In this document: piece after piece, positions 8,560 to 53,213 of the stretch
How the letters are laid out: every line of letters begins with the position of its first letter
How positions within the stretch are numbered: position 1 is the first letter of the stretch
NCBI RefSeq assembly: GCF_000002075.1
Contig: NW_004797468.1
Coordinates: forward strand, 22,109-86,108
Length of the DNA stretch: 64,000 nt
Direction of reading: 5' to 3'
From: Aplysia californica
Taxonomy: Eukaryota; Mollusca; Gastropoda; Aplysiida; Aplysiidae
Translations under genes and position numbers: made by a program
The notes under the pieces: model-generated
What the model saw: only the letters and a program-made list of their open reading frames with translations
What the model was told of the DNA's origin: nothing
The model's database searches: none

Positions 8560-8949
8560 GTAAGTTTAGTTTAGTTTTAGTAGAGTTTTTATGGCGCTCG
8601 CAATGCATAAGGTCATATGAGCCCCACGGGGTGGATGTCAACAGAGAAGTCCATACAGGAAATCAGCCAGTTTGTCATCAATGGGACTCCAGCTCCTTCC
8701 GAGGGTGTGGTTACTCTGCTCACCTCTCTAACTTCAACAGCACAAAGTCTGCTCCGACTATCAAGGCACCCCGGAAATAGCGGGTCATAAGAGTGTGACA
8801 AACATACAATAGAAGTAGAGGAAAAATGACGATATTAAGGATTAGGAAAGAAAAAGCAGTAGTTCCCTGTTGCAGTTCAGGCACAGTTATGAGCATGGCA
8901 TTGATGAATCAGCCTATTTACAATTCTATTGTGCATAAGAACATGTTAA
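8560..8949 (-). repeat. SINE-like repeat P with LINE-derived tail, copy 1
   Basis: On the minus strand it ends in the tail GCGCTCATATGACC...GAGCGCC shared with the window's main LINE, then a short TAAAACTAAAC-type terminus. The body matches copies at 9140 and 33815. Unusually, 8665-8699 inside it is a 35-bp perfect copy of 8316-8350, the end of the ABCF3 last exon, replacing two bases of the consensus. The 5' part stops at TTAA (8946-8949), where the sequence changes to CCCTATCCGTACG, perhaps a piggyBac-like terminus. Confidence 0.65.
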
Positions 8950-9139
8950 CCCTATCCGTACGTCGTGTCTTACTATTGTATCCATACGACGTGGTGAACT
9001 CTGTGCCACCACTTTCCAAAGAGGAAATTTACTCGTTAATCCGATCCGTACGCTTTGCATAGCAGTCTGTCAAAATGATTTTTTTTAGTAATTTGACTAT
9101 CGTGGAGCTCCCATCTCAAAGTCATGTAAACTGGCTTTT

Positions 9140-9530
9140 TTGTTTTGTTTTAATAGAGGTTTTACGGCGCTTGCAACCGCATAAGGTCATAAGAGCACCA
9201 AGGGGTGAATGTCAACAGAAAAGTCCTTACAGGGAATCAGACTTACTCTGCTCACCTCTCTAGTTTCAACAGCACATTGTCTGCTTCGAATATCAAGGCA
9301 TCCTGGAAATAGCGGGTCACAAGAGTGTGACAAACATACAAAAGAAGTAGAGGAAAATAACGATAGTAAGGAATAGGAAAGAAAAAGTTGTAGTTCCCCG
9401 TATTCCCTATGTTATTCCGGCACAGTGTGAGCATGACATTGATAAATCAGCCCATTTACAATTCTACTGTGCACAAGAAAAAAATGTTAATATCCCCCCT
9501 TTGGGAATGGCGTAAAAACACTTCAGTCAG
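9140..9530 (-). repeat. SINE-like repeat P with LINE-derived tail, copy 2
   Basis: Same family as 8560-8949 and 33815-34400, with the shared tail at its low-coordinate end and a body lacking the exon fragment. It gives the undisturbed sequence GGAATCAGACTTACTCTGCT at the point where copy 1 carries the ABCF3 insert. Confidence 0.7.
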
Positions 9531-9797
9531 TAGCACTGCCTTCTATCTAGATTCTATTGTGCATTCGCTAGTAGCAGCTATTGTATAGGAGTACAGGCGA
9601 GACGAGATTTGACTTTCAGTAAAAATGGATACATTTTTGAAAGGAAAGAACGCCTTGAAAACAAAAGCCGCTGAACGTCAGCTTCAGTTTACCAAACGCA
9701 CACATGTGTTTGGCGGAAAACTGTTCTGTTAGTGCGTACGTAATGTGGTACTTGACCACATCCGTAAATCGACGACAGTGGACGGGCATTTCTGTGT

Positions 9798-10037
9798 TTA
9801 CGCCATCTTTACCCGCGGCTTTTCCTTCTGGGGTGTTTCTAATCTAATTGCGAGCTCTACCTCTAACTTTAGAATGTTGGGACCATTGTTGGTGCTTGGT
9901 TGTGGTAAGGGTGGTCTTTTATCTTCAAATAATTCTCCTACATATTCTACCCATCTTCCTAGGACTTCTTTTTTCTCAAACAACATAATTGTCTTTTTTA
10001 CCTTCAACGCCTCCTGACAATCAATGACATTGTTCAA
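9798..10037 (-). mobile_element. RTE-like LINE scrap (endonuclease-RT linker)
   Basis: An 80-codon open stretch with EVLGRWVEYVGELFEDKRPP, then LPQPSTNNGPNILKLEVELA. The pattern RWxEYxxELF...D.RP....GP.IL..EVE.A is the region just before the reverse transcriptase core in RTE/Proto2-type LINEs often annotated as craniofacial development protein 2-like. Only this linker survives; neither endonuclease nor RT follows. Confidence 0.65.
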
Positions 10038-10492
10038 ACTGCCAGCTCACCTGATTTTGAAATTATCAGTATAGTGTCTCATTTCCTTGAGTCACACTGT
10101 TGCTAGTATTTTAAGTTGTGGGCTTGTGTTTCTAAACAAAAATAAAGACTATGCTGCTAATTGCTGGGTTTTAAAATTTTATTTACTGGGTCTGTAGTGC
10201 TACTTCTCAGCGTATGATTAATTGGTACTTATACATTTAAAGCAGTATGGAAAATAAAGTTTAGACATAGTCGCAATCCTTGCAGAATATTGACATTTTC
10301 CATGCAGAAAACGACAGTCAGAATGATTCAAGAATGGTACATCAAAAATGAAAAGACACAGCAAGGATGTACACTTAAAATAAATTAAGAATAAAAGAGA
10401 TATGTCACGATAAAAATATTTTCCTACAGTTGTACCAAAAGTGAAATAAGCGCCCGTTAACTGTCAATCATAGACTTTAAGACTATGTATCC

Positions 10493-10846
10493 CACAGAAT
10501 TCTACACTTCTAGATCCCATCCCATTATTTAAAAAAAACAACAAACCAACAATACAAATACAAAAACATTGTAACATTGCCAATTATGACATATTGTTGG
10601 CAATAAAAATGTATTAGATCTAGACTATTTCACTATATTTCCTCTTCGAAGAAAGTTTTAAAATACTGATGTAAGGTGTCTTCCAAGCCCTACCACTAGC
10701 ATCAGCGTGCATAGCAACGCGAAGCCTCGCTGTGCGGCGCAGCCAAAGGTGCCCTCAACTGGCCGCCATGTTTTAGTTTCAATTCCTCACAGCGAATCGG
10801 CGATCGCGAAGAGGGAGTTCCGCTTCTATAAGTGTAGAATTCTGTG
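10493..10846. mobile_element. hAT-type MITE, complete (354 bp)
   Basis: Perfect 17-bp terminal inverted repeats CACAGAATTCTACACTT, flanked by an 8-bp duplication ATGTATCC (10485-10492 and 10847-10854). An 8-bp duplication points to hAT. No coding capacity. A second right end lies at 1-102. Confidence 0.88.
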
Positions 10847-11312
10847 ATGTATCCTTATGCGTGACGCAACGTTACGTTGCGCGCGACAGCAGTCCCGAGG
10901 TGTGTTCGTCGCGCACAAATTTTCAGTCGCGTGCGATAGAAGTGACAAAAGTGTCTCCTTATGTGTGACTGGTAAATCCTGTGTGCGACGGGCAGTTCAC
11001 AACAGAGAGACAGTGGCAAGTTATTTTTGGCACATAGCCTCGAGCCTTGCCTTCACCAACACACACAAACACACTCCCCACACACGGCGTGTCGACCGTG
11101 GGCACGTCTTGGCTAGGTATTTAGACCTAAACCTGCCACACCCCCCAGTCTGTCTCCCGCTACGAGACTCTTGATCGCTACATGAACCGATCAGACGCGA
11201 CAGTCGCGAGTGACGTTACGTCGCGTGTAAGGAGACATTTTCTTTACAATCTTACTTGATTGATTTTAGAGCGAGAAGGACCAGACGTGACGTTACGTCG
11301 CACATAAGGAGA
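10847..11312. mobile_element. MITE with TGTCTCCTTATG ends and repeated subterminal motif
   Basis: The left end TGTATCCTTATGCGTGACGC and the right end, inverted, TGTCTCCTTATGTGCGACGT are near mirror images. The motif recurs internally near 10950 (TGTCTCCTTATGTGTGAC) and 11205-11240 (inverted). The first bases coincide with the hAT MITE target duplication, so that MITE inserted exactly at this element's left terminus, and the true left end lies at about 10486. Its own target duplication is not clear. Confidence 0.6.
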
Positions 11313-12225
11313 CAACCTCAAAAAAAAAAATCACTTGTCAGTAGCTTTAGCAACAATTTACCGACTTGGTCGAGTCAGTATTAATATTAATATAGATCTA
11401 TTCTTTGAAGCCATCTTGCCCTTTCTCAGCTACACTACCAAACCTACAGTGATAGATTACCCAAACTGCTATCGATAGGGTTCAATTTGAGTCGAAGTTA
11501 GCAAAGGCAACACTCCGTTTTGATGTTACCTTCCAGTCTGTTTTGACAAAGGTCACAGTCGTGCGGGTTGCGCCGCCTACGCGACAGGAGAGAGAAGCAC
11601 CTCGTTCTGCTGTCAGAGTCCGGGCTTAAAACAAATACACTTTTCCCCTCCATTTCCCACCTTCACCCTAGCTAGGCTATAATTTCTATAATAAGCATTT
11701 GACACAGTGCCGCACTTTGAAATTAGAACAGTGTCCTGAGAACTGAGTAAGGCAAAGAAGAGAAGAACCTTTGAGTACTATTGGAAATTGTTGTGTGCTA
11801 AATCTGTTCAATGTGTATGTGGGTGTGTGTTTAGTGCAGTGTACAGTACCTGGTTCTACACTTGATCTGCATGGAACAGCGTCATTGGTAAGGTATCAAT
11901 TGACAGTGACAGAACACAGGTTTCATATACAATTTTTATATGGTGAGTGCAGGTCGAGACTTTGAATGTGTGAGTAAAAATGGAGCCTAAATCTTTGGGT
12001 AACATAGGCCTACAGGGGGCAGGGCTAAGAGGCGGTTGCTTCTTACTTTCTTTTTGTTCTCTAGTATACCGTAGTAGCATTTTTTGTTCCGTGTCGATAA
12101 AGTCAGTTTGTATCCATATTTCAGAGGCTTCAATCAATGTCTTGAAACTTTATAATTTACATTTAAAAGTTTGTTATGGTGTGGATTTTTTTCTACTAAA
12201 TCCTTTTCATTAATTCATACATTCC

Positions 12226-12360
12226 CCCCCCCCCCCCCCCTCTCTCTCTCTCTCTCACGCACACAAACAAATACACACATGACGTGCATGCACACACACA
12301 CACACAAACCTAAAGACATACTGGTAAAAGTATACCATTGACTGTCTGTGTGTGTGTGTA
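12226..12360. repeat. Simple repeats: poly-C, (TC)n, (AC)n, (TG)n
   Basis: A C-run and (TC)n at 12224-12257, (CA)n around 12290-12306 and (TG)n around 12346-12358. Confidence 0.9.
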
Positions 12361-12543
12361 TGTGTTGTATGGGCGCAGTTTTGAGGGGGGAGGGGGGCAA
12401 GAGGTATCATTGGGCGTTACAGCTGGTCAGTTCTGCAAACCTCAAGCCGCCCCTGCTCATAACATAAAATACTAGCAAGAAGTGAGACCCATAGAAATGA
12501 GACACCATAGTATAATTTCAAAATCAGGTGAGCTGGCAGTTTG

Positions 12544-13774
12544 AGCTCGACACATTTGTAGCAGATTACACAAACTTTGTACTCTATTCTTTTGGTAACA
12601 GGCAGTCAGCGAAGGCCTTTCAAGACTGGTGTTACATATTTTTCTTTTGAAATATCAATATGCTGCACAATTCTGAGCTGTCAGAATTCATTTGATGGGG
12701 AAAGCTGAGAAACAAAGCCGATCTTGAAATCCCGTCTGGATAGAATTAGAATCTAGATCTAGATCAAGTTTGTTTATAAAAATAAAGAACACTCTAATTT
12801 CCCGCTTCCAGTGAGAGGGAGATCCCTCTAATGTCGTCAGCTCGGATAAGTTTAATTTCTTTTTGGCAATTCTACGCCTGAAAGCATAATAATGCTGCAA
12901 AATTCTGCACACAAAAAAAAAAAAAAATTACGCGGTGCCATGGGTGAAGTTCCACAGTACGGTCGATCCATTTTTCCATGGCAGCGCCGTGGTTGCAGTG
13001 CTCATAGAAAACCACAATGACAGATTTGCGCCATTACACCACCATCTGTCAACTGTCTCAGTTGTACGATACTTATACTTATAAAACTCATGTAAATTTA
13101 CTCCGTTGAACCGCTGACAAGCTGGCCGCCAGAAGTACACAGTACACACTAGGTTACACACAGTGCACGGCACATCCACTCGGGGGTTGCTTGACAATCT
13201 TTCACACACTAGTCTACAACCTAGACCTACGGCGATTTGCTCCCTCTCCGCCCATCCCATCTCCTTACCCTTGACTTGTAGATTTCAGGCAATATGGATA
13301 GATCTACAGCGATGTACTGCAAGCGAGAAGATTACGAATAATATAAAACATAACTTTGTAAGTCACCATCAAGTTTCTCTCCCCGCGTGATTCCGACTAA
13401 ATTTGATGCACTGGTTATAAAATGCTGCTCTATTTAGACCTTGGTCAATATAACAGAAGAAAAAAAAAACGGAATTAAATTTTTGTCGCCTAGAGAAACT
13501 TTAACGGACCCTTGCCATCATGTTCATCTCAAGGGATATAGGGTACAACAGGGTGTGACTGTAGTTCCTTTCTGAAAATTTTTCTCTCTAAAATAAAAAA
13601 TCAATGCACATATTTTCTAGTTGCAACAGTTTTTTGTTGGTGAAAATGCGCTGTTTAACTGAAATTTATTATTGCTCTATATAAAGATACAGCAACACCA
13701 ATCAACCTCCACCTTGTAGACCATGACCAACCACCAGAGAGTGGAAGTAGAGATGACTGGATATAGACAGTGAT
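12544..13774. other. Unassigned intron sequence
   Basis: Part of the 5.6-kb ABCF3 intron. No exon, RNA gene or repeat boundary recognised; short open frames on both strands carry no known motif. Confidence 0.5.
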
Positions 13775-14005
13775 ACATTTTTCTAAAATGTAGATGTTTT
13801 TTCACTCCTATTGACACAATTTCGATTATTTACAAGGCGGGCTTCTAACCCTGCCTGTCAGGGCCAAGCTGGGCTGAAAGGGATACAACATCACAGCAGA
13901 AAGGCAGAGATACCAGATAAAATTCTCTCCACTCAGGAATTGAACTAGAGTCTCCTGCGTGTGACAACAGAGCGCCTAACCGTTACACCACAGGACCAGT
14001 GTACA
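13775..14005 (-). repeat. tRNA-derived SINE X, copy 1
   Basis: On the minus strand the head carries an A box in GGTGTAACGGTTAGGCGC and a B box in TAGTTCAATTCC. A body with CTTTCTGCTGTGATGTTGTA follows, then AATTGTGTCAATAGGAG. A diverged copy lies at 46752-46945 on the plus strand. It is not a functional tRNA, because it continues into a conserved body and lacks a closing acceptor stem. Confidence 0.7.
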
Positions 14006-14068
14006 GAAAGTAAAAGTAAAGTAAGTAAGGCAGTTCTACAAGCAGAACCACTTTGACAATTGTCTTAC

Positions 14069-14156
14069 CTTGAACTTGTTCAGAGCTTCCCCTAAGGCCT
14101 CAATAGTCTCCATGTCCAAATGATTCGTCGGCTCATCAAGGATGAAAAAGTTTGGG
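14069..14156 (-). CDS. ABCF3: ABCF3 exon: ABC2 Walker B
   Basis: An 88-bp exon reading [20 protein letters not shown] and then [20 protein letters not shown] is Walker B with the catalytic Glu plus the D-loop, intact. The acceptor is GCCAACAG|C and the donor is TTCAAG|GTAAGA. The flanking introns are 9.1 kb upstream and 5.6 kb downstream in gene order. Confidence 0.95.
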
Positions 14157-14543
14157 CTGTTGGCAGAAACACGAGTTACAACATGAAACGCACCCTTTAC
14201 TTCAGGGCGACAAAAGTAGCCACTTTTTGAAAACAGCCTTATTTCTCAACAGCTCCCCCCCCCCAAACAATTCACAGATAGGATAGACTTTATAGCTTTC
14301 CAAAGTTATTTTAAAAATAGTAGTCAACTTTAACTCTATTTGACTGCAATGGTATTGTCTAGAATCTGAGCATAGTTGGGCGTTATGACTGGTGGCTATA
14401 GAAGCAAACAGTTGTCAGACATGTGGTATTAAATATCAACAGTAAAGTTAAGTCTGAAAATTTATATATGATTGAAAAAAATACTGATTTCAAAAGGAGG
14501 TAATTATAGAGTGACTTGAAATTGAAAGAAGTTAAGGGAAATG

Positions 14544-15432: not shown

Positions 15433-15649
15433 TTTTTTTGTGTGGAAAACTCAAAAAATGAATTATGAAGCTATTTATCACTATCACTAAAGATCAGGTA
15501 AAGAAACGACTGAATTGTATCATCTTAACTTAATACAATGAAATGAACATTCGCTCCGTAACGAAATAAAACAAAAACATTTAAGATTCCATTTCTTTGT
15601 TTTCGCGTTCCCCAGCTAGATCAACCTGAGAGCAACTGAATTTTAAGTA

Positions 15650-19565: not shown

Positions 19566-19611
19566 AGATTATTTTCAGTTTTGGTATGAATTAACTTTGG
19601 TATGAATTAAC

Positions 19612-23559: not shown

Positions 23560-25376
23560 TTTGGTTTAGTTTAGTATGGGGTTTTACAGCGCTCGCAACT
23601 GCATAAGGTCATATGAGCGCGTGAAATAATTTGTTTTTTTTCTCAACAGTTTATTTCTTGGCATGATACTGGTCAATATTTCTATTTAAAATTGTAAAAA
23701 CACTAAAAAATCAAGAGTAAATAGATTTTAGATTTAAATTTAAAACAACTTTCTAAATGACACTAAAATTTCATAACTTTCTATAAAGGCAAATGGCCTT
23801 TATAAAATCCAAAATTCTGTTGGGATCAACAATGGAAAAAATGTCGTGCAAATTTTAGCATTTAAAGTATTTCCTTCGGGTCTCTCCGAAGTCTAGACAT
23901 TCGGTTCTAACGGTAAAATCGGCGTCGCATCCGACACAGAGTGGCTTCTCTTCTCCCTGAAGGAGGTGTTTGTGTGTTAGGGCCGTGTGCCCGATGTGTA
24001 ATCCAGTAAAAATAACTTCATCTCTTCTGGAGAGGCCCGAAGGATTTCGCGGTCCCAGTTTGGGTCTAATGTTGTGTAGTTTGTTATTAGTTTGTTTTTT
24101 CTAATGACTCTCCCACAGACTGGAAGTGTACTTTTTGACTTTATATTTTAAAGTCAGTCTGTGGGAGAGTGTTCGTCGTTGATCCCAACAGAAAGGATAT
24201 AAGGATTTCTTCGCCAGATCATCTAGCTGCTCGTTTCCTCGGATGCCCACATGGCTAGATATCCATGCGAACACGATATTTTTCCGTTTCAGCTAAGGTG
24301 TGTATTTTCTGTTGTAGCATAACTATTTTGGGGTTTAGGAGAGTGTAGTTTGTGAGTGAGGTGATGCAAGACAGAGAGTCAGAAAGGATAAAGAAAGATT
24401 CATTAGGAGATTTTCTATGGAGTCCAGTGTCATGTCAATGGCAGTGGCCTCCGCAGAGAAAATGGAGGCTTCAGGATGGAGTCTCCCCTGGTGTGGACTG
24501 TTTGAAGATAGGGCAGCGGCGCCCACATCATTGTCTTTTTTTTTCTGTGAAGATAAACTCCAAACCGGGGTATTTTTCTATAAGTTTTTTGTATTCTGCT
24601 TTAAATGTTTTGGTGTTTGTGCTTGCTTTGTTGTGTGTGGTCAGCTGTAAGTCTACTTTTGCTTTGGTGAGGTGCCATGGAGGGAGGTCAGGGAAAAGAA
24701 ATTGTTGGATGTTTTGTTTGGGAAAGTGTATGTTTTTGAGGTCCTCAAGGATTCTGAGGCCGAAGGGTTTGATGAGTCTTTCATTGTTTTGGAATTTGTT
24801 TATGGTTTCTGGGTTTGTTTTAAAAATGCAGTTGTGTGCTGGGTTCTCTGGTGTTAAGCTCTGTTTAATTGCGTATTGTAGTGCAAGTTGTGTGCATCTG
24901 AGTGTGAGTGATGGTATGTTTGCCTCGGCCTGGAGGCTCTCCACCGGAGAAGTGCGGAAAGCCCCCAGAGCGAGGCGGAGTCCTTGGTTTTGCACTGGGT
25001 CTAGCATTTTGTGTGGTCTTTGTTTGGTTTGGGTATTGACCAAGACTCCGGAAAGGAGTGCGACCGCCACAAGTCGTTGTATATGTCTAGTAGGAGTGTA
25101 AGTGTTTCTGTGGGTAGGTGTCTGATGATCTGGTTGTGGATGTCATCCGGTCCTGGGGCTGTATTGCCCAGGTCCGAGATGCACGATGTTAGTTCGTCTA
25201 ATGTGAAGTCTGCATGGTAGGTTTCAGTGTTGTTTGAGTTGAGTGGAAGTTTAGGTGTTGTTGTTCGCTTTTAGTTTTGATGTTTTGAAAGGTGGTGTTG
25301 TAGTTTGCTTGGGATGAGTTTTTGGCAAGAGATGTAGCTATTGTGTTTTGCGATGTCTACCAGTGTTTCAGCTGGG
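23560..25376 (-). mobile_element. Main LINE family, damaged copy 2
   Basis: The minus-strand 3' part of the family represented at 51726-58891: tail at 23575-23625, C-terminal zinc-like region, RNase H region and the RT-RNase H connection (LDPVQNQGLRLALGAFRTSP). The RT core is missing through an internal deletion of roughly 0.9 kb relative to the full copy; the join near 25010 lies at a shared GTGTGG. A further deletion of about 20 bp follows. The copy is 5'-truncated near 25376. Confidence 0.85.
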
Positions 25377-26139
25377 GTGAAATATTTGAAGTTGGCCAAA
25401 ATTTTAAATACATCACAGTCAATGTCCAAATCAGATACGTTATTCAAGCACACATTTTCAATAGCTTGATTTAAAACTGGTTTATTCGGAATCAAGGTTT
25501 GGTCTCCAAGAGATGTCTTTGTTGTATCATCTTTTGACCCGAGTTTGACTTAAATTTTGCTTATTGCAAAATACTTCCAGCGCTACTAAAGGGATCCATA
25601 ATGATGTCAATGTGGTCAGATCATTGCAGCCAAAATCAAACTTTTACGTAAGAAATATAGCAATCTGACAAGACTGTATCACAAACACTCTCAGGAGACG
25701 TAATGCTAGTCTTTGTGGAGCACCAGTCGTACTTAATAAAATGCTCAAGTTGAAGGGAAAAAAGGAATTGTTGTTTCATATCACCAAGAAGAGACAAGGA
25801 CAGATCGAATCTGCCAGACAATGTTATAGTTGATCGAAACATCAAGTCACAAAAAAATTAAGAAGGAAGACTATGTGCCGCCATAATACATTCAATTATC
25901 CAGTTGGACAAAGAAATTTACTATCACAATGCAGTATCATTGTTCTATAATGACGCCGAACTGTGAGAATGTGCTAGACATACTACGATGTCAAATGACT
26001 GGTCAGCAAAGTAATACGAAGTTGATCAGTGAACATCTGGAGGACATTAAAAATTTACTCAAAATTTATTTTAACAACAACAATAATCACCACACAGAGA
26101 AGCAAACAAATACAAACTTCAGTAACATATAACATATAC
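25377..26139. other. Unassigned stretch above the P-loop exon
   Basis: No family recognised. On the minus strand 25380-25540 is open and coding-like (NVSDLDIDCDVFKILANF), possibly part of another decayed element. 26066-26110 is rich in AAC/CAA repeats. Confidence 0.4.
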
Positions 26140-26527: not shown

Positions 26528-28815
26528 AAAGCTTTAGTTTATTAAGAGTTTTATGGCGCTCGCAACTGCATATGGTCATATGAGCGCGCAAAACATGAGT
26601 TGGTTGCATTCAAAACAGTTCACAGCACGGCTTGATTCTGGTCAACATTTCTACAGTGGAACTCCGATTCAACTAGGTCGCCGGGCCTGACCTAAAATCT
26701 TGTTGCATCCAAGTGTTCGCTATAGCAAACAGGAGGTTTTGTGTAGATAATTACAGGCACTGAGCAAGTAATGTATAAAGAGAAATCACAAGTTGAGCGT
26801 GAAATGCCTGCATATTATGAGCTGTGTTTAAAAAAAAAAGACCGAATCGTTCAATTATACACGCCTGTGTCATCTCGATTGTTTACCAAAACGTTGTGTT
26901 GCTGTGTAGAGCCTAGCATACGGCAACTTTTGATTCCATAAACCAGCGCACAATTCATTATGTTGATCTACGTCAAGACTAGCTTATTATTGTAATAATG
27001 ATCAGTTGCCGAAGGAAAAAAAAAAGACTGATGCGTTTGTATACGCGACGTTCTACGCCCGTACCGCAAGTGCCCCCTCCCCTCCCCGACATGCGCACAC
27101 AGCCACATGTGTGCAGGCCGCCCATCCGACCGCGATACACGCCAGAGTAGACACGTGCACATGCCAACAACACATGTGTTGGTATGTAAAAAGGCCGCTG
27201 ATTGGTCGCATGCAATCGGCTAAATGAATAATGGTTCCCGATGCAGGTGCAATGGATGGTTTCCGCGAATAGATAAAGTTCGTTCTGGGAGAAAAATGAG
27301 CGAAGCCACATCTGCGGGGACTGTTCACCCTGGAAGTGACCTCGTTGAATCCGAGCTCGCTGATTTCAGTGCTCGTTGAATCCAGGTTATTTTTTATTGA
27401 TTTTAAAGAAGAAAAAAACGGGGAATCTATCTCATCTCGTTGAATCCGAGTTGTCGTTGAATCCGAGCTCGTTGAATCCGTGTTCCACTGTATTAAAATG
27501 TTATAAATTCGTGGTATACAAAAGTTATTATTAATAACGCTATTCACAATTTATTGTAAAGGCCTATATAAAATCAAAAATTCTGTTAAGATTAATGATG
27601 GAGAACATTAAAAATACTTCCTTCGGGTCTCTCTTAAGTCTGGACATTCAGTTGAGAGGTATCAAATGGAGAAATCTGTGTTGCACCTGACAAAGAACGG
27701 TTTTTCATCTCCCTGTAGGAGAGGTGTGTCCGATACGTAATCGAGTAAAAATGACTTCATCTCGTGGACCCAGTTTGGGCATGATGTTGTGAAGTTTATT
27801 GTTTATTTGTTTCTCCCAATGTGTCTCCCACAGAATGTAGTGCAGTTTTTTACTTTATTTTTAAAGTCAGTCTGTGGGAGAGTGTTGGTCGTTGATCCCA
27901 ACAGAAGGGACAAGAATTCCTTCGCCAGGAAATCCACCTCCTCGTTTTCTCGGATGCCCACATGGCTAGGTAGCCATGCAAACACAATACTTTACCCAGT
28001 TTCAGTCAAAGCGTGTATTTTTCGTTGTAACTTAGTAACCTAACTATTTTTGGGTGTATGAGAGTGAAATTTGTAAGTGAGGTGATGCAAGACAGAGAGT
28101 CAGAAAGGATAAGGAAAGATGTGTTAGGGGAATTTTCTACGGAGTTCAATGCCATGTGGCCTCCGCAGAGAAAAAGGAGGCTTTCGGATGGAGTCTCCTC
28201 TGGTGTGTCCATAATGGAGTCCGATTTAGAGCCACCTGTGAAGATTAGCTCCACACTGGGGTATTTTTCTATAAAAGTTTTTTTTGTATTCTGCTTTACA
28301 TGTGTTGGTGTTTGTGCGTGCGTTGCTGTGTGTGGACAGCTGTAAGTCAACTTCTTCCTTGGTTAGGGGCACATCGCTCTGATTACCAGAGTTGTGCCAG
28401 GGCTACCCCCTGAGTCATACTCTCCACGAGAGTGTACGGGACCCTCCAGTCAGGATTGACCCAGGGACTGAAGTGGGCTTCAGCTCCCAACACCGATTGA
28501 GTGGCATGGGCCTTGCCACCCTCCTGTCTAAGAGGAAAAACCTGGGCCAAAGAGGTGTACTAGTGAGGGACAGTCCACAGACTGATCTCACCTCACGGTC
28601 AATGAGGCGCCCACTTCCTGGGTTGGATGACCTCTAGTTTTGCTGCTAATGAGATCAGTGGTGGAAGAAGAGATAGAAGAAGAAAGGATGAAGGAAGGAG
28701 AAGAGGAAGATACACCAAAGTAGATCTCACACATGGATTCCAGAGGGTTGGGGTCTATGTGAAACACTTCATCATTGGAGGGGTTTCACCTCCTGCAGAC
28801 AAGGGGCTGTCATAG
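26528..28815 (-). mobile_element. Main LINE family, damaged copy 3 with MITE inside
   Basis: Minus-strand copy with tail at 26540-26640, C-terminal and RNase H parts at 27559-28345, then a direct jump to the 5'UTR at 28365-28815, which is nearly collinear with 58380-58860 of the full copy. About 4.2 kb (ORF1, endonuclease and RT) is absent. The TA-flanked MITE 26654-27490 interrupts its 3'UTR. The open frames left are short and non-functional. Confidence 0.85.
26654..27490. mobile_element. Pogo-like MITE (GTTGAATCCGAG type)
   Basis: Ends CAGTGGAACTCCGATTCAAC and, inverted, CAGTGGAACACGGATTCAAC, each flanked by TA (26652-26653, 27491-27492). At least five TCGTTGAATCC(G/A) repeats crowd the right end. 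The related LINE copy at 23560 reads GGTCAATATTTCTATTTAAA without the insert, so it provides the empty site. Length 837 bp, no coding sequence. Confidence 0.9.
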
Positions 28816-29726: not shown

Positions 29727-30070
29727 ATAATAATAATTGCATTTATATAGCGCATATCCATGCTCAAGAGCATGCTCTATGCGCTTTACAACCATTATTA
29801 CCCCAGCAGACCCTCTGAGAACACTCAGAAACATACTCGGCTTCCGCGGAAGCATATAGTGCAAGCTGCGGATTTCACGCGCTCAAACACTATCAAACTG
29901 ACAAGATCGTTCACTGTCTATAGCCGAGTACCCATTTCCACCCGGGTGAAGTGAGGAAAATTTGTGCGAAGTGCCTTTCCCAAGGACACAACGTCGGGCC
30001 TCTGACGGGATTCGAACCCACGACCTCAAGGTTGCGAGTCCGAGAGCTTAACCACTAAGCCACCGACGCC
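29727..30070 (-). repeat. tRNA-derived SINE Y with ATT tail
   Basis: On the minus strand the head GGCGTCGGTGGCTTAGTGGT (A box) is followed by GGGTTCGAATCCCG (B box), a body of about 200 bp, then TGTAAAGCGCATAGAGC and GCGCTATATAAATGC, and an (ATT)n tail. The 3' domain resembles the conserved Nin-DC-type domain known from mollusc and deuterostome SINEs (inference from memory). Imperfect duplication ACATTTATA / ACATTATAA flanks it. Confidence 0.75.
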
Positions 30071-30075: not shown

Positions 30076-30104
30076 ATAACAGCAAACGCCACTCGCCTCT
30101 TTTG
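30076..30104 (-). repeat. Ectopic fragment of the ABCF3 signature exon
   Basis: Twenty-nine bases, one mismatch, matching 23279-23307 inside the ABCF3 exon that encodes GGQKSRVAFAVM. It lies in a different intron, immediately beside SINE Y. It is too short to be an exon and lacks splice sites. Confidence 0.7.
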
Positions 30105-30235
30105 AATACAGAGAAGCACATCGACACAATAATAGTCATTTAGTAGTGGGAAAAAGTAAGACAGACAGACATAAACAACAAAGGGAAAGTAAAGAAGGAC
30201 CTACTACTGGTGCCCTCCACCAACCACCCACACAC
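30105..30235. repeat. Interspersed repeat T, copy 1
   Basis: Shares about 130 bp with 34455-34610, including AGAGAAGCACATCGACACAA and a GACAGACAGACA stretch, ending in CCACCAACCACCCAC. Probably a short SINE; no tRNA box was identified. Confidence 0.6.
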
Positions 30236-33682: not shown

Positions 33683-33814
33683 CTGAAACAACATTCAGTT
33701 AGAATACAATTATTACAATGGAGTCCACTTAACAAATGAAGACTTTGCAGGAGGAAACAGAGGAGTCACATTTGCAATTATTCAGGGCTATACTGGATAT
33801 GCACTATTACTTTA

Positions 33815-34400
33815 GTTTTTCAGTTTTGGTTTTGGCAGAGTTTTTACAGCGCTCCCAACTGCATAAGGTCATATGAGCGCCAAGGGGTGGATGTCAACAG
33901 AGAAGTCCTTACAGGGAATCAGACTTACTCTGCTCACCTCTCTAGCTTCAACAGCACAAAGTCTGCTTCGACTATTAAGGCACCCGGAAAATAGTTGTTT
34001 GTTTTAGTAGAGGTTTTACGGCGCTCGCAACTGTTTAAGGTCATATGAGCGCCAGAAGATTAGAGGTGTTACAAGAGAGTAACAAACATAAAAAAGAAGG
34101 AGGGGAGATAAGGACGATAGATGTTTGATAGGAAAGAAGAAGCAAACCACATCAGAGCACCTGCCAACCACCCACCCCCGGAAATAGCGGTCACAAGAGT
34201 GTGACAAACATACAAAAGAAGTAGAGGAAAAATGACAATTAGTAAAAATTGGGAAAGAAAAAGCAGCAGTTCCCTGTTGCAGTTGAGGTACAGTTATGAG
34301 CATGACATTGATGAATCAGCCCATTTACAATTCTACTGTGCTTAAGAAAATATTAATGTCCCCCCCTTGGGAATGGCCTAAAGACACTTCAGTCAGTTGC
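33815..34400 (-). repeat. SINE-like repeat P, copy 3, with SINE W inside
   Basis: Fullest copy of family P, with the LINE-type tail at 33838-33880 and a 5' end near CCATTCCCAAGG at 34365-34380. It is split by the W element at 33995-34178. Outside the insert it aligns with 8560-8949 and 9140-9530. Confidence 0.75.
33995..34178 (-). repeat. SINE-like repeat W, copy 1, nested
   Basis: Inserted in repeat P with duplication CGGAAAATAG / CGGAAATAG (33985-33994, 34179-34187). It ends in the same hairpin tail as the LINE (stem GGCGCTC / GAGCGCC). The body ATTAGAGGTGTTACAAGAGA is shared with 44172-44344. Confidence 0.8.
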
Positions 34401-34454
34401 ATTGCCTCGGGGGGAGTTACTATGGTTTAACATAACGAGTGCCTACCATTTGCT

Positions 34455-34610
34455 TGTTTGTTTGAGTAAAGAGAAGCACATTGACACAATAATGGTCATT
34501 TAGTGGTGGGAAAAAGTAAGACAGACAGACAGACAGAAACAAAACAGGAAACGTAAAGAAGTAGGACCTACCAGTAGTGCCTTCAAACCACCTGCATCCA
34601 CCATTTAAAA
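34455..34610. repeat. Interspersed repeat T, copy 2
   Basis: Second copy of the repeat at 30105-30235, slightly longer, with GACAGACAGACAGACA and ending in CCACCTGCATCCACC. Confidence 0.6.
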
Positions 34611-42730: not shown

Positions 42731-42897
42731 TTAGTTTAGTTTAGAAAAGAGTTTTATAATGGCTCTCACAACTGCATAAGGTGATATGATGCATTCACAA
42801 CAGTTCACAGAACGGCTTGGTTTTGGACAATAATCAGATTAAATGGTTAAAAATTTCAATCCTAAAAAATAACAATTTACATTTAATTGAAATAATA

Positions 42898-44574
42898 TAG
42901 TTTTTTCAGATCAAATGTACACATAGGAAATACAAACGCCACATAGGAAATACAAATGCCACATAGCAAGTTCAAATGCCACATAGAAAGTTTCACGCCA
43001 CATAGAAAGTTCAAATGTTCAATAGGAAATTTTAGTGCACGATTGTGCGTAACAAGTTCAAATGTACAAATAGCAAATCCAAATGTAACGCAATAGCAAG
43101 TTCAAATGCCAAATAGCAAAAGCAAATATCCTCCACAAAGATTATTCAGCGTGAAAAGCATTGTAATGTGCTCAAACTGAGTTGACGACAATCATAAGCA
43201 GTTTAATTTTAAGGTGAATTGATCACCATTTAAAAAATCCCAAGGATACTCCCGAAGAAAAACATTCAGATAGGACTGAAGCAACTAGACATCAATATGC
43301 AGCATGGCTGATGCAGAACATTTAGCGGTATGAATTTGCCTTCATCGATGAGGCTGGTAGCAAGCTGTTGACGAAGAAAAACCGATGAAGAGCACAGAGT
43401 GGTCAATGCTTTTTTCGAGTAATGCAGGGTCGAAGGGGACCGAACTGTACGATGCCACAGGGGCCTAATTTGCTGTCAGTGACGAGGGTGGCCTGGTCTT
43501 TCACGACTTTCAAGTAGAGGGAATGGCAGCTTTCGTTTCAACCCATCCATCTAAGAAACTGGTCCAACAATCCCCACAACGAAGTATGCTTTGTATGTAA
43601 CAATGCTCGTGCACAAAGGCAGGCTTTAAATGGCAACTCATCAATAGATTGGGGAAGAAATATCTACCCCCCAACACACCTTTTCTTAACATCTACGAGT
43701 ACGAGAACGCTTGTGAATTTGGAAATACGATTTGAAACCGTGGCTCGGTGAAGCAAAAGACCAAATGCTCACTCAGCTGACTCATCAACAAAGGATGGTC
43801 ACACTTGCCCAGACGATGGAGCAAAAAAGTCAAGCTGTGACTATAGTGAAAATGGCAGCAGCCTTCAGATCAATGCAAGCTTATAAGCCACAGCGTTTTG
43901 TCGTGCAACAATAAGTTAGTAAATAAAAGTAAACTTGGCTTTAGATTTCACTCAGTTAGTTCTATAATATACCAACAGTTTTTTTAATTAGTATCATACC
44001 ATTCCTTTTGGTTTGAACATGTGGGTTTATTTTCGGTTTTTAACATAATTCAACTATTAGTTTCGTCTCACATGATTTCTTCCTTGTGTCACCACACAGC
44101 TTGTCTAACTTTTTCGAGGCCATAAAAACCCAAACCCTTCTATATACTTCTTATACTTTTAGCCTCCTTTTTAGTTTTAGTAAGAGTTTTACGGCACTTG
44201 CAACACAATAAGGTCATATAAGTGCCGAAGATTAGAGGTGTTACAAGAGAGTAACAGACACAAAAAAGGAGGAGAGATCAGGATGATAGATGTAAGATAG
44301 TAAAGAAGAAGCAAAGCACACAGGAGCACCCGCCAACCATCCACTTAGCCTCCTTTTACTCTAGTTCAAGCATATTTACATTTGAACTTGTTATGTGGCA
44401 TTTGAATTTGCTATGTGTTACATCTGAGATTTCTATGTTTACATTTAAACGTGCTATTGTTGTATTAGGACTTTTTATGACGTCATTTGTATATTTGGAT
44501 TTGCTAGGCGTAATTTGGTCTTTCTATGCGGTCTTTGAATTTGTTATGTGTATATTTGAACTGAAAAAACTGTA
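42898..44574 (+). mobile_element. IS630/mariner-like element with repeat-built TIRs
   Basis: Ends TAGTTTTTTCAGATCAAATG and, inverted, CAGTTTTTTCAGTTCAAATA, flanked by TA. Arms of about 200-240 bp are made of degenerate ~20-bp units of the form TTCAAATGCCACATAGCAAG, about eleven on the left and inverted on the right. Between them, plus-strand remnants of a DDE transposase are visible: FAFIDEAGSKLL at about 43330, YLPPNTPFLN at about 43660 (compare LPPYSPFLNPIE), and a C-terminal WLGEAKDQMLTQLTHQQRM ending at 43914. Stops and frameshifts make it inactive. SINE W (44172-44344) lies in it. Confidence 0.75.
44172..44344 (-). repeat. SINE-like repeat W, copy 2
   Basis: Flanked by a perfect 13-bp duplication TTAGCCTCCTTTT (44159-44171, 44345-44357), proving retroposition. 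The tail hairpin has changed to CGGCACTT / AAGTGCCG, with both strands of the stem altered in concert relative to CGGCGCTC / GAGCGCCG. The 5' end on the minus strand is GTGGATGGTTGGCGGGTGC; no A or B box is obvious. Confidence 0.88.
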
Positions 44575-45104
44575 ATATTTACATTTCACTGTAAAAGGCC
44601 AGTGGCCTTTATAAAATCTAGGATTCTGTTGGGATCAACGATGGAGAACAGATCTTTCAAATTTCTACATTTAAAATACTTTCTTTCAGTCTCTCCAAAG
44701 TCCAAACATTTTGTTTCTCATATCCATGCAAGAGGTACTTGTGTGTTAGGGAGGTATGTCCAATACCCAATCGAGTAAAAATTACTTCTTCTCTTCTGGA
44801 GAAGCCTGAAAGTTTTCGTGGGCCCAGTTTGGGCATGATACTGTAGAGTTTGTTGTTTTGTAGTTCATTCCAGTGTTTCTGAAACTGACTGGAGTAGTAG
44901 TTTAAAACTTTATCATTAAAGTCTCCGTGGAAGGTTGTTCTTCGTTGACCCCAACGGAAAAGACAAGGATTCTTTAGCCAGGAGATCAACCTGCTCGTTT
45001 CCACAGAATCCCACATTGGTAAGAAGCCATGCGAGCATAATATTCTTTCCCGGTTCCATTAAAGTGTGGATTCTCAGTTGCGAGTATCTCCATCTGTGTT
45101 CCAG

Positions 45105-46945: not shown

Positions 46946-47136
46946 AAATTAAATTGTTTTCTTATTCAAGCAAAAAAATTCTAAAAACAGCATTAATTTT
47001 AAAACACTCCCTTTCCAATACTCCCAAGTTACAACTAAATCTTGTTCTCTTTTGAAGAGTAGGGATTTTTAGAATCAATCATGACAAAACCCACAAGATT
47101 CATACAGTAAAATTCAAATCAGGGTCATAAACTTAC

Positions 47137-47213
47137 AACTTCTCCAACAGTTTCAGTTTACTTTGGACTTGAGCAGCTCTGTTTGCATTGTACCTAAATC
47201 GGTCAATAAACAC
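47137..47213 (-). CDS. ABCF3: ABCF3 exon: linker
   Basis: A 77-bp exon giving VFIDRFRYNANRAAQVQSK and then LKLLEK, with a split Leu codon at its end. The acceptor is TTTTCAG|GTG and the donor AGTT|GTAAGT. The RFRYNANRA block is a hallmark of the ABC-F linker helix. Together with the previous exon it forms the coiled-coil-like spacer between the ATPase domains. Confidence 0.95.
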
Positions 47214-47494
47214 CTGAAAAAGAAAAGTCAATTTTTAAAAATAGCACAACAAAGAATTCAAACAAAGTATCAACAGGATTTCTCTAAAAAAATAAGCAAC
47301 TCACCATTTAGTTTAATGTCATGAAAACGTAAATTGTATTCTACATAAACACGTAAACAAAGTACAGTCATTTTGGCATCAAGCCCTTGGGCAGTTTCCA
47401 TTGTTTTTGAACACCGTTGCAGCAACTGGCATACTGATATTTCAAGATCTGACGTTTATGCTTTTTGGAATTTTAATGAATAATAATAACAAAG

Positions 47495-48202
47495 ACAACA
47501 CTGGTGTTTAACTCCTCCGGCCAACCATACAGCGGCACCTGGCTTCACGCACTCCCTTCTTCTTCCCTCGGTTGTCTCCTTGACAATGATAGCCTCCGTA
47601 TCAGAGTGGCGACGAGACTCGGCCTCAAAGTGTGCGAGCCTCACACATGCCGTTGTGGATCATCAGGCGATAACTTTGGCCTACACTCACTGTCCTATCA
47701 TCGGAGTGGTGGTCGTCTCCCATGTCATGCCGCCCTCAACGACACCGTGAAGCGTGCGTTCGATGCATCCGGCCTACATTGCATCCTTGAACCCTTCGGC
47801 CTCGACCGGGGCGACGGCAAAAGGCCGGATGGCATCATCATCTTTCCATTCAAGGGTGGCAAAAGCCTCATGTGGGACGCCACATGCTCCGACTCGTTCT
47901 CACCGCTGTCCATCACCTCCTCTGCCTCTGCTCCTGGCAGTACGGCAAAGAAGGCAGAAGAGTCCAAACTTTGGAAATATGCAGGCCTCAGCGATCGCTA
48001 CCACTTCGTACCAGTGGCCGTCGAAACGTCCGGCGCTCTCAGTCTCCTGACGACCCAGTTCTTCCAGAAAGTTGGTCGTCGGTTAATAAATGCCACAGGT
48101 GACCAACGAGAGACGAGGTGGTTGTTAGAGAGAATTTCTCTGGCCATTGTTAGAGGCAACGCCTTTTCAGTATTGGCAGCCCCACTGGCGCACGAGCAAT
48201 GA
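47495..48202 (+). mobile_element. R2-type LINE, C-terminal endonuclease domain
   Basis: An uninterrupted reading frame of about 235 codons to TGA (48200-48202). Order: WLHALPSSSLG (a motif after RT), a zinc-like CEPHTCRCG...HSLS with the last Cys replaced by Tyr, the block LEPFGLDRGDGKRPDGIII, then GKSLMWDATC. The latter two fit the (K/R)PD-x(12-14)-(D/E) catalytic pattern of the restriction-like endonuclease at the end of R2/NeSL/CRE-type LINE proteins. The element is 5'-truncated, with no RT upstream. GC content is well above the surroundings, and the open frame suggests a fairly young insertion. A GATA/GATG tail follows. Confidence 0.7.
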
Positions 48203-48214
48203 ATTACAGCTCCC

Positions 48215-48352
48215 AATAGATAGATGGATAGAAAGATGGATAGATGGATGAAAGTAAGTATAGATAGAAGGATAGATAGATGGATGGATGGATAGATGGA
48301 CAGATGGAGGGATGGATGGATGAATGGATGGATGAATTGATAGATAGATAGA
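48215..48352. repeat. (GATA/GATG)n microsatellite
   Basis: About 138 bp of GATA and GATG units starting 13 bp after the stop of the endonuclease frame, probably the 3' tail of that LINE. Confidence 0.9.
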
Positions 48353-49043
48353 TGTGATCTAAACGATGAAGACAAGACAGTAAGATGGAGAGGGATATTG
48401 TATAAGAAGAATATACTACATTATTATGTTGTCTCAGCTCTTGTGGAGAAATATAATCGTATCCCCTCTGCACCAAAGAGCACCATTATCCTTTTTTCGC
48501 GTTCTTTGTGGCTAAACATACATCAAGGTGACGATGGACGAGAAAAGTCAAGATCCAGAGTAAAAATAGAAATGTGGGCTTCAATGTCAAGGATAGTTTT
48601 ATTATAGCAGACTCGGTTAACAAATTACTTGTTTTCATGTTATCGCTCAGAATGTGTGAACATACTGTGTAAGCTTCCTAGATTTAGTCTAGCCATATAT
48701 AGTCTCATTTCTTGCTCTCAGCTGAATTCAATAAAGACAAAGGTGATTCCAACAGCTCAGGGAGAACAATGCTGAACCAGAGCAGATGACCTTAGTTTGA
48801 ATCCCCAATCTGGCGTTCTCTAACCAACTAGACTCAGTCTTATCAGAGACAGAAGTTCAAGAGGCAGGGTCTCACCCTTTAAATAAAATCTTACAGCGTT
48901 TAAAGAAACCTGAAGGGGAAACAGCACCAAAGCAAGACAATGGAATGAAAGACTGGATGGGGAAAAAAAAAGAAAAAGTAAATTGTCCATGATGATGTAA
49001 CAATACAAAGTACAAAGCAATTCAAGGGATCTCTAAAACAAAC
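48353..49043. other. Unassigned intron stretch
   Basis: No exon recognised. 48755-48840 has a B-box-like TTTGAATCCCC but no A box in place; it may be a worn SINE. Confidence 0.4.
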
Positions 49044-49244
49044 CTGTATGTGGTCTCTGTACTGCTTCTGTGCTTCATACTCCTTCCTCTGGTTCTTCAG
49101 TCTTTCTTCTCTCGTCTTGTGGAAGACTTCATAGTTACCTCGGTAAGAGTCTAGTTGATAAGAGTGCAGGTGAATTATATCTGTTGAAACTGCATCCAAG
49201 AACAGGCGGTCATGGGACACTACAAAAATAGTGGTTGGCCAATT
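49044..49244 (-). CDS. ABCF3: ABCF3 exon: ABC1 H-loop and start of ABC-F linker
   Basis: Sixty-seven codons, open throughout, acceptor CCCCAG|AAT and donor ATACAG|GTTTG. The exon starts at NWPTTIFVVSHDR, the switch/H-loop of ABC domain 1 with the catalytic-site histidine. It then continues through LDSYRGNYEVFHKTREERL into the charged linker ending in EAQKQYRDHIQ. In ABC-F proteins this linker joins the two ATPase domains and reaches the ribosomal tRNA sites. The match to ABCF3 is strong in both parts. Confidence 0.95.
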
Positions 49245-49662
49245 CTGGGGAAATACAGCAGCAATACCAAAGCTTTTTTCAACATAGAACATAGGCACTA
49301 CAAACCTATAAACCACACTGATGTAAAGTTAATGTTTCTATAGCAAAATGTTCATATTTTGTCACACAGATTGACATACCAATGTTGCTTATTCTCATAA
49401 TAAATAATTCATTACTGACAGAAGAGGGAAATTAATTCATTATTGCTGCCTAGAAGAGGTAACTAGAGGCAGTCACTGGTTTTTCAGTAAATTTGAAAAG
49501 AAACTTCACAGCGATTGCCAACAATGAAACGGCAATCACACATCATGAGAATCATACATTTATTAGTCACACTTTAGAAAAATTTTTCCTCTAAAAGTTA
49601 GCATTGAGTACAACTTTAAAGATTCAATGGTATTATCAACAGAAATGGAGATGCAGTTTTAC

Positions 49663-49718
49663 CTGTAAGTAATTTTCAAGCCATATGATAGCTTTCATGT
49701 CCAACATGTTCGTAGGTT
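49663..49718 (-). CDS. ABCF3: ABCF3 exon: end of ABC1 Walker B / D-loop
   Basis: First exon visible in gene order. It reads PTNMLDMKAIIWLENYLQ, preceded by two bases that complete a Glu codon with the missing upstream exon, giving the ABC-F Walker B/D-loop DEPTNMLD. The acceptor is a T-rich tract ending in CAG, and the donor is CAG|GTAAAA. The 56-bp length is two bases plus 18 codons, in phase with the next exon 418 bp downstream. The preceding exon, which should carry the LSGGW signature of ABC1, was not found up to 64000. Confidence 0.9.
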
Positions 49719-49977
49719 CTGAAAAAAACCAAAACAAACAATACAACTCGTAAAATGAGCCTGCATAAACAGAATATGACTTTAAAAAATGTATTTCTTT
49801 CACTTACGCACACAATTCCCCGCTCCTTTTAGAGGAAGTCAAAATGAAAAGGAGCAGGAAGAAAGCTGAACTGAAAGTTACTCTAAGAAAAGGAGTTCAT
49901 AGAAAGGCTTTTTGTTACCAGAAAGTTTGAGAAGCCTTTCAGTGATTCAGTAAGAGACTTTGGATACGAGTGGCTTT

Positions 49978-50497
49978 TTTTGTTTTGGTTAAGTGTTTTA
50001 CGGCGCTCGCAACTGCATAAGATTATATGAGCCCGCGGGACACACCTAATATTTTCAGTTGGTAGGAAATTTTGAATTTTGCCCGGGTGGCGGCCGAAGC
50101 CTACTCTTATCGATTTTAGACCACCAAGGGATCTTGTGCAACTTGCACACGGGCCCTCTGAAATTTTTCGCCCTTGTCCGAGAAGGCTAGATGTAGATCT
50201 TTCCTACCAGAAGATCAGGGGTGTGGCTGAAAGACAGCAGTAAGAAGAAGCGAAGGAGTAGCAGTAGGAAGGCTGCAGAAAGAATCAGGAGCCCAGAGGA
50301 AGGGGAAAAGGAGATGAGGGGGTGAGGGCAGAAAGAGGAGACGAAAGCAGACGACAGAACATTGCTAGAGAGCAGGAAATGAGGTGAAAGGAGACAAATT
50401 TAGAGAAGGAAATTTTTCGGCCGCTACCCGGAATCGAACCCGGGACCTTTGAATTAGAGGCCAACACCTTAACCTCTAGACCACGAGAGCTCCCCAT
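49978..50497 (-). repeat. tRNA-derived SINE Z with LINE tail
   Basis: On the minus strand the head is GGTCTAGAGGTTAAGG (A box) and GGTTCGATTCCGGG (B box), followed by a body of about 350 bp and finally the tail CTTATGCAGTTGCGAGCGCC of the main LINE family. The tRNA-to-LINE-tail architecture is classic for a SINE that borrows LINE machinery. A body fragment also lies at 19612-19700. Confidence 0.85.
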
Positions 50498-50801
50498 AGG
50501 AGTTGCTGTTATTAAAAAGTAAAAATGAGGAGCAGTGTAGTAGTAAGTTTGGTTTTTATAAATATAGTTTCCCTGGTTTAGAGGAGTAACTCATTGTCAC
50601 ATCAAAGACAGACCACACTGCAATTTCAAACGATGCACTGTAGTGACTCTCCAAACACTCAATTAACTCACAACACAGCAACTGACATGACCATGACTTC
50701 GCCCGGACCTGCCAAGTGCTCAAATGAAAATACCGCCTGACCCGACTGTCCTACACAGTCAGTCGAGTAGAAAATTCCAGTGAGTAAAGACCTACCTACA
50801 T

Positions 50802-51365
50802 CAGACCTGCCACTCTATGAAATCTAAAAATCTGGATTTCTGAGTTAAAAAATCAGGATCTGGTGAAAAAAATCGGGATCAACAGCAAATCAGTCATAAA
50901 GGGCACTGGGGAAGCCGGGGGGGGGTGTCCTGGTTCCCTTTTAAGAGGCAAGTAGGCAAGTATGCAAGGCAAAACTTTCACAGCATATATGTACTCGAGT
51001 CGAAGTTGGATAGACTGGGGGAGCGAAGGTCGCAGTGATGCTGAAACACTCGTAGTCTTGAAAATAGCTGAGACGTAACTCTAATCATCCACGCAAAACG
51101 CCCGCGTTTTAACGTTTGACTTCCATCACATCGAAAAAAAGATCGCGCCAAGGTTATTTATTTTTTTTCTTATTCCTTTCCCCTTAATTAGTACCTGTAT
51201 CACGGCACGCACTTTAAGCCCAAGTGTCAAAACAATACCCCCCCCCCCCCCCCCCCCTCCCCAGTATCAGGATACTGGCAATCAAAATCGGGAAAATCGG
51301 GATGCTTGAGATTTGGGGCAAAAAATCGGGATATCCCGATTAAATCGGGATGAGCGGCAGGTCTG
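50802..51365. mobile_element. CAG...CTG element with 6-bp TSD (family 3)
   Basis: Ends CAGACCTGCCACTC and, inverted, CAGACCTGCCGCTCATCCCG, flanked by CTACAT on both sides (50796-50801, 51366-51371). It is 564 bp, with a C-run at 51238-51257 and repeated AAATCGGGAT near the right end. It sits exactly where the LTR end of the gypsy fossil should meet its primer-binding site. Confidence 0.85.
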
Positions 51366-51725
51366 CTACATTGGTGACCGCGATAAGTTGAAACGCAATT
51401 TCAACTTTGTGTGTTCGATCTTGGATTATATGTTGGATCATATTTGAGCGGGTTTGCATTTTCATCACAGCCCTTGCCGCCTTACCATCCCTTCAAAATA
51501 TGTGACCATGATCGTCAAGTAAGTGCAGTTTTGATTAAACTACCAACATTTTGGACAGCTGGGCTGGAAACTTGGTGCACCCAAACTGAAGCACAATTTG
51601 CTCTGCGGAATATCACCCAAGACGAAACTAAAAATTACTTAGATGTTGCCGCCTTCAACAACAGCATAGCTACTCGGGCACTTTCGATATTAACCAACCC
51701 ACCAGAGGACAACAAATACAGCATG

Positions 51726-52993
51726 TATGTATGTAGTATAGGGTTTTACGGCGCTCGCAACTGCTAAGGTCATATGAGCGCGCGAAACACAAGTTGTTCA
51801 TCTTCGCAAAAGTTCACTCCACGACTGGTTAACTAATTGACTTTAAAATGTTAAAAAGTTAAAATATTTAAATTCGGTGTAAATATATTTGTGATTTAAA
51901 ACAACTCTTTTAAGTAACAATAAAATTTTTTAAATAGTACGTTTTCATTTTACAATTTGCAATAAAGGCCAATGGCCTTCATAAAATTCAAAATTTTGCT
52001 GGGACCAACGACGGGAAAAATATCTTGTAATTTCTTGCATTTATAATATTTCCTTCGGATCTCTCCTAAGTCTAGACATTCTGTTAAAATGTGTCTAATG
52101 TTCAAATCTGTGTTGCATCCGACACAGAACGGCTTCTCATCTCCCTGTAGGAGGTATTTGTGGGTCAGGGCCGCGTGTCCGATGCGCAATCGAGTAAAAA
52201 AGACTTCGTCTCTTCTGGAGAGGTCTGAAGGATTTCGCTGTTCTAGTTTGGGTTTTATTTCATATAGTTTATTATTTTTCTGCTTTTCCCAGTGGCTCTC
52301 CCACAGACTGGAGGTGTACTGTTTGACTTTATTTCTAAAGTCAGTCTGTGGGAGTGTGTGTGTGTGTGTAGTACAGGGTTTTACGGCGCTCGCAACTGCT
52401 AAGGTCATATGAGCACAAGTTGTTTACTTTCGCAAAAGTTCACAGCACGATTGGTTAACTAATTGACTTTAAAATGCTAAAATGTTAAAATATTAAAATT
52501 TAGTGTAAATATATTTGTGATTTAAAACAACTCTTATAGGTAACAATAAAAATTTTAAATAGTACGTTTTCATTTTTCATTTTACAACTTGCCATAAAGG
52601 CCAATGGCCTTTATAAAATTCAAAATTCTGCTGGGAACAACGACGGAAAAAATATCTTGCAAATTCTTGCATTTATAATATTTCCTTCGGATCTCTCCAA
52701 AGTCTAGACATTCTGTTAAGATGTGACTAATGGTAAAATCTGTGTCGCATCCGACACAGAACCGCTTTTCATCTCCCTGTAGGAGGTATTTGTGGGTCAG
52801 GGCCGTGTGTCCGATGCGCAATCGAGTAAAAATGACTTCGTCTCTTCTGGAGAGGTCCGAAGGATTTCGCTGTTCTAGTTTGGGTTTTATTTCATATAGT
52901 GTATTATTTTTCTGCTTTTCCCAGTGGCTCTCCCACAGACTGGAGGTGTACTGTTTGACTTTATTTCTAAAGTCAGTCTGTGGGAGTGTGTGT
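51726..52993 (-). repeat. Two extra tandem copies of the LINE 3' end (period 632 bp)
   Basis: The last 632 bp of the LINE (C-terminal coding region plus 3'UTR) occur three times head to tail, at about 51726-52361, 52362-52993 and from 52994 as part of the full copy. Both internal joins are the same: tail GTTTTACGGCG, TAGTAC, a (TG)n run, then CTCCCACAGACTGAC of the next unit's truncated start on the minus strand. The two upper copies are almost identical, and the lowest is more diverged. Confidence 0.92.
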
Positions 52994-53213
52994 GTGTGTG
53001 TAGTACAGGGTTTTACGGCGCTCGCAACTGCTAAGGTCATATGAGCACAAGTTGTTTACTTTCGCAAAAGTTCACAGCACGATTGGTTAACTAATTGACT
53101 TTAAAATGCTAAAATGTTAAAATATTAAAATTTAGTGTAAATATATTTGTGATTTAAAACAACTCTTATAGGTAACAATAAAAATTTTAAATAGTACGTT
53201 TTCATTTTTCATT

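Follow-up and report, generated by a model that had tools for sequence, protein, structure and literature searches.

A 3′ hairpin tail shared by a LINE and short repeat families in Aplysia californica: a probable LINE/SINE partnership

Many SINEs carry the tail of a partner LINE (PMC3747384). In maize and sorghum, L1-clade LINEs and SINEs have a common 3′ end of ~50 nt that forms a hairpin in which stem changes compensate each other and loop bases are conserved (PMC3747384), and in Aedes aegypti the tRNA SINE Gecko has its 3′ end in common with I-clade LINEs (PMC3747384 Table 1). A single LINE tail can serve several families, as in the salmonid SlmI, HpaI, and OS-SINE1, which are described on the tail of the RSg-1 LINE in work cited in PMC3272025 and known here through that citation. 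HaSE1 and HaSE3 of Helicoverpa armigera have part of the body as well as the tail in common, their partner being an RTE LINE and their heads being derived from tRNA and 5S (PMC3272025). The reverse transcriptases (RTs) of ZfL2 elements need a paired stem and tolerate stem swaps, with specificity residing in the loop (PMC4176376). The general principle is already published, including compensatory stem changes and the use of one LINE tail by several SINEs.

The window considered here is a 64-kb stretch of A. californica DNA, analyzed over its whole length, in which the same hairpin tail ends LINE copies as well as members of three short repeat families (P, W, and Z; Table 1). The arrangement is very probably an ordinary LINE/SINE partnership of the stringent type, in which the tail module of the LINE has been captured by at least two unrelated non-autonomous lineages (P/W and Z) that are copied in trans. 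It adds another SINE-shared LINE tail, probably of the I group, for which few pairs are on record. As in UnaL2/UnaSINE1 and ZfL2-1/ZfL2-2, a 3′ stem-loop, predicted in the present case, lies near the end of the element and is followed by short repeats, and in eel it is likewise shared with SINEs. However, UnaL2, ZfL2-1, and ZfL2-2 belong to the L2 clade, whereas the present LINE, known here from sequence alone, has an RNase H domain and an ORF1 with putative CCHC knuckles.

Table 1. Positions of the tail-bearing elements, their hairpins, and associated features in the window
Feature	Position	Strand	Remarks
Exons of a gene that we take to be ABCF3-like	8332-8478, 49050-49223	-	
P1	8565-8949	-	Hairpin tail 8593-8625, one GxG mismatch
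P2	9138-9541	-	Hairpin tail 9166-9199, one CxA mismatch, one U-G
Lb, 5′-truncated LINE copy	23567-25378	-	Tail 23588-23621, E 1.6e-19; 83% identical to La over 1.5 kb
Lc, LINE copy interrupted by other sequence	26536-28807	-	Tail 26555-26588, E 2.2e-18; 72-77% identical to other LINE copies
P3, split by W1 insertion	33813-34407	-	Hairpin tail 33848-33881
W1, inserted in P3	33995-34175	-	Hairpin tail 34020-34053, fully paired; fold z -3.40
X42, old LINE copy split by later insertions	42737-45080	-	LINE matches 42735-42830 and 44594-45080
W2	44172-44344	-	Hairpin 44193-44226 with two-pair change; fold z -3.12
Z, SINE with tRNA-like head	49976-50495	-	Hairpin tail 50002-50035, one GxG mismatch
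La, full-length partner LINE	51726-58891	-	ORF1 with putative zinc knuckle; endonuclease, RT, and RNase H domains; 3′UTR; 3′ end triplicated
La1 hairpin tail, terminal unit of La	51750-51782	-	Motif and profile matches; fold z -1.04
La2 hairpin tail, internal duplicated unit of La	52385-52417	-	Motif and profile matches; one U-G pair
La3 hairpin tail, internal duplicated unit of La	53017-53049	-	Motif and profile matches
Second short hairpin in P/W module	8770-8812, 9303-9345, 34178-34220, 34056-34098, 44228-44270		

The element RNAs correspond to the minus strand, such that each element has the motif at its 3′ end, which on the plus strand is the left one. As RNA, the tail reads GGCGCTCATATGACCTTATGCAGTTGCGAGCGCCGTAAAAC, with CTAAAA-like repeats, (CTAAAA)n, behind it. 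The module spans ~41 nt and consists of a 6-bp stem, a conserved loop of ~20 nt, and GTAAAAC, with the short repeats behind it; by inspection, the part that P, W, and Z have in common reaches from the stem base to GTAAAAC. The SINE 3′ end is homologous to the LINE 3′ end, as defines a stringent-type pair, and the boundary of this homology at the hairpin base makes the presumed minimal recognition module easy to test.

Across the whole 64-kb window, a 20-mer motif from the tail has 10 matches with up to 3 mismatches (0.00 expected), and a second tail motif has 13, of which 11-12 are real; the match at 8783 sits in a P body and is not a tail, and that at 55189 is chance-like. A profile made from eleven copies and searched against the window returns 12 matches with E values of 1.6e-19 to 4e-9, every one on the minus strand. 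The original prediction, that the string occurs about twelve times and ends the LINE copies as well as P, W, and Z, is thereby borne out, no such matches being expected by chance. Searching the literature for the motif brought up nothing but unrelated papers, and degenerate tail patterns have no matches in viral or prokaryote contigs. One 19-mer match in a viral contig (L001) was discarded, its surroundings being bacterial-virus-like and the rest of the motif absent.

All 12 tail-bearing copies, which represent ~10 independent events between 8565 and 53049, share the strand of the ABCF3-like gene, a pattern that was noticed post hoc. Insertions in introns are usually biased toward the antisense orientation, and the tail-bearing copies run contrary to this bias.

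The partner LINE La is bounded by a 12-bp TSD, CATGCTGTATTT, at 51714-51725 and 58892-58903. It encodes the endonuclease (Exo_endo_phos_2, 3.9e-10) and RT (RVT_1, 9.7e-35) that characterize a LINE, and an RNase H domain (RNase_H, 1.7e-8) is placed after the RT, as in I-group LINEs. The element is probably a member of this group, a label taken from domain order only. ORF1 gives a weak zf-CCHC match (E 0.014, below the curated cut-off) with CxxC..H..C motifs visible in the translation, and ORF2 is split across several frames. A scan with the RT protein returned nothing from viral contigs and, among prokaryotes, a single RT of 20% identity in Corallococcus, which is not a useful relative.

The 3′ 632 nt of La are present three times, head to tail, within the one TSD-bounded element (51726-53627), and the tails at 51743, 52378, and 53010 therefore derive from one LINE insertion. 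The units are 93-99% identical (A/B 99.2%, A/C 93.4%). Both junctions have the identical form (AC)n-TCCCACAG, resembling the LINE-internal ACACTCTCCCACAG, and the triplication may have arisen either by template jumping or by later unequal exchange. In the self-comparison of the window, the identity of Lb, Lc, and X42 to La falls from 83% to ~67%. Lc is flanked by a near-perfect repeat, AAAGCTTTGACA/AAAGCTATGACA, and the tail of X42 (42738-42789, E 4.3e-9) is the degenerate twelfth copy.

The tails of the LINE copies have diverged far less than the adjacent 3′UTR. La3 and Lb are identical at 37/39 tail positions and 33/59 3′UTR positions (p 1.2e-5), La3 and Lc at 36/39 and 37/57 (p 0.0015), and Lb and Lc at 37/40 and 46/71 (p 0.0008); in pairs with X42 the difference is weaker (p 0.045 to 0.59). 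An identity of 92-95% in the tail against 56-65% in the 3′UTR supports selection on the tail. This conservation is better evidence of function than the paired stem change in W2 described below.

Tail sharing between LINE and SINEs had been proposed at the outset, and it is well supported: the tail is common to them, TSDs are present, the LINE encodes endonuclease, RT, and RNase H, and the tail is conserved beyond the 3′UTR. Most likely, the LINE RT binds the 3′ hairpin module of its own RNA. RNAs of P, W, and Z with the same module would also be bound by it and copied in trans, the stem presumably being needed, and target-primed reverse transcription would start from the short repeats behind the hairpin.

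TSDs are also found among the short repeats. W2 has a perfect one of 13 bp (44159-44171 and 44345-44357), W1 one of 8 bp or more (TTTCCGGG or slightly longer), and Z an imperfect one (10/12, AGCCACTCGTAT/AGCAACTCCTAT); for the P copies, the search for TSDs found none. The bodies of P and W have a module of ~80 nt in common: P2 and W1 score 63, where the null mean is 19 (z 15.7), and each P-W pair scores above 200/200 shuffles. The bodies of Z and P are unrelated (z about -1). A common module of W and Z is weak and is not claimed (W2-Z is reached by 4/200 shuffles, W1-Z by 55/200). The clearly separate short lineages thus appear to number two, P/W and Z, in addition to the LINE. Of the three or more unrelated families originally counted, Z with its tRNA-like head looks separate, whereas P and W are related through the ~80-nt module.

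In this respect P and W resemble HaSE1 and HaSE3, two families that share part of the body together with the tail, although those have an RTE partner and tRNA and 5S heads. No tRNA match is found in P or W with Rfam or ARAGORN, and lacking a recognized pol III promoter, they may not be classical SINEs. They could instead be 5′-rearranged non-autonomous derivatives of the LINE, or other RNA copies, a doubtful reading to which the body module common to both families and the 5′ shortening of P1 relative to P2 and P3, like that of LINE copies, would lend themselves. Against it, W repeats are of a defined short length and both copies are flanked by TSDs, and the self-comparison of the window matches no P or W body to the LINE. 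Within the P/W module lies another short hairpin, formed by GTCAC..GTGAC in P2 and P3 and by GTTAC..GTAAC in W; between the families, one of its pairs differs on both sides. In P1, 35 bp (8665-8699) exactly repeat the end of the last exon of the ABCF3-like gene (8316-8350), ~350 bp away.

By inspection, the head of Z is A- and B-box-like, with a clear B box, GGTTCGATTCC, yet neither Rfam nor ARAGORN reports a match there. Z, with its tRNA-like head, resembles Gecko in sharing its 3′ end with a LINE; the two pairs are likened by description, the clade here being taken from domain order. Several SINEs on one LINE tail recall the salmonid RSg-1 case as it is cited, with another LINE and another host, and with two clearly separate lineages here. 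A 16-nt inverted repeat in Z (50083-50098 and 50416-50431) pairs the end of the tRNA-like head with a site near the 3′ end.

The consensus stem has 6 bp, GCGCTC/GAGCGC, to which RNAalifold adds four weak inner pairs. P and W alone have a seventh pair, and an eighth that is Watson-Crick occurs in no copy but W2 (in W1 it is a wobble). The general stem of the hairpin proposed at the outset is therefore 6 bp long, the 8-bp stem being confined to W. In the seven-pair stem as first drawn, 86.8% of cells pair, more than in 500/500 shuffles and in all slid versions. Fold energies are moderately better than those of shuffled sequences (z -3.4 to +0.6). Folding is strongest in the two W copies, where z lies beyond -3; elsewhere z is mostly -0.5 to -2.1, and single copies outside W are often unremarkable, from -2.14 to the +0.63 of X42, which has lost the hairpin fold.

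Both arms of the W2 stem have changed together, as originally reported, to CGGCACTT/AAGTGCCG. Two pairs are altered on both sides, G-C to A-U and C-G to U-A, giving the tail pattern GGCACTT...TTATTGTG...AAGTGCC, and all seven pairs are kept (eight counting the C/G at the base). These are the only two-sided changes among the copies, and W2 is the only copy that has them; the compensation in maize and sorghum tails extends across several elements. The double change is compatible with selection on pairing, for which it is weak evidence and no demonstration.

Coincidental decay could also produce the W2 stem, a tentative account to which we give somewhat less than an even chance. Three of the four stem substitutions in W2 are CpG transitions, the dominant form of decay in these tails (7/72 CpG against 4/285 non-CpG sites in the other nine simulated tails), in a window whose CpG observed/expected ratio is 0.68. 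As the GCGC core is palindromic, deamination of CpG on both arms often hits partner bases, and pairing is kept by luck. If four stem changes are assumed, two compensated pairs arise with a probability of 0.006-0.046 that varies with the weight given to CpG. In a CpG-aware simulation with fitted rates, some copy of ten reaches at least two compensated pairs with P = 0.033 and a set reaches at least two compensated cells with P = 0.12, values that are rough, since W2 was part of the fit and the copies were taken to be independent. Pairs are broken in other copies, in keeping with decay. The retention of every W2 pair argues the other way, as do the mere 16/500 shuffles that attain two double-changed pairs and the perfect TSD, which suggests that W2 may be too young to have gathered its seven tail mutations by decay.

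W2 may alternatively represent a W subfamily whose tail was acquired whole from a different LINE subfamily, in which case the tail changes would have come in together and the pairing change would have arisen in that LINE. Exchanges of this kind, of a SINE 3′ tail from one LINE to another, are considered in PMC8010984. W1 and W2 differ at 12/55 tail sites and 14/118 body sites, the W2 loop carries three adjacent transversions, unlike point decay, and the TSD of W2 is intact. This history is nevertheless unlikely: the window contains no LINE with a W2-type tail, the comparison rests on two W copies, and part of the W1-W2 tail difference is the loop change of W1 itself.

The further proposal that structure, and not sequence, is recognized finds no support. 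Independent variation of stem positions, which had been named as the pattern that would count against it, is present as unpaired core changes in P1 (GxG), Z (GxG), P2 (CxA), and X42 (AxA plus a gap). The covariation term of RNAalifold over the window copies is +0.02, which is no gain. With W2 left out, changes fall as often in the core stem (5/108) as in the loop (8/177); conservation of the loop is no lower than that of the stem, and both appear to be kept. A more specific scheme is rather improbable. In it, the RT of this LINE group would recognize the loop by its sequence and the stem by its shape only, and W2 would be a live subfamily whose stem drifted by compensation, possibly alongside an unseen LINE subfamily with the same changed tail.

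Other repeats lie among the tail-bearing elements. Those at 30101-30225 and 34461-34592 are alike, and neither has the hairpin tail. At 29997-30069 the minus strand is tRNA-like (Rfam, 31.7 bits); this stretch, also without the hairpin tail, adjoins the repeat that recurs at 34461-34592. Farther along, a tandem array with a 206-bp unit occupies 61266-61861 in 2.9 copies.
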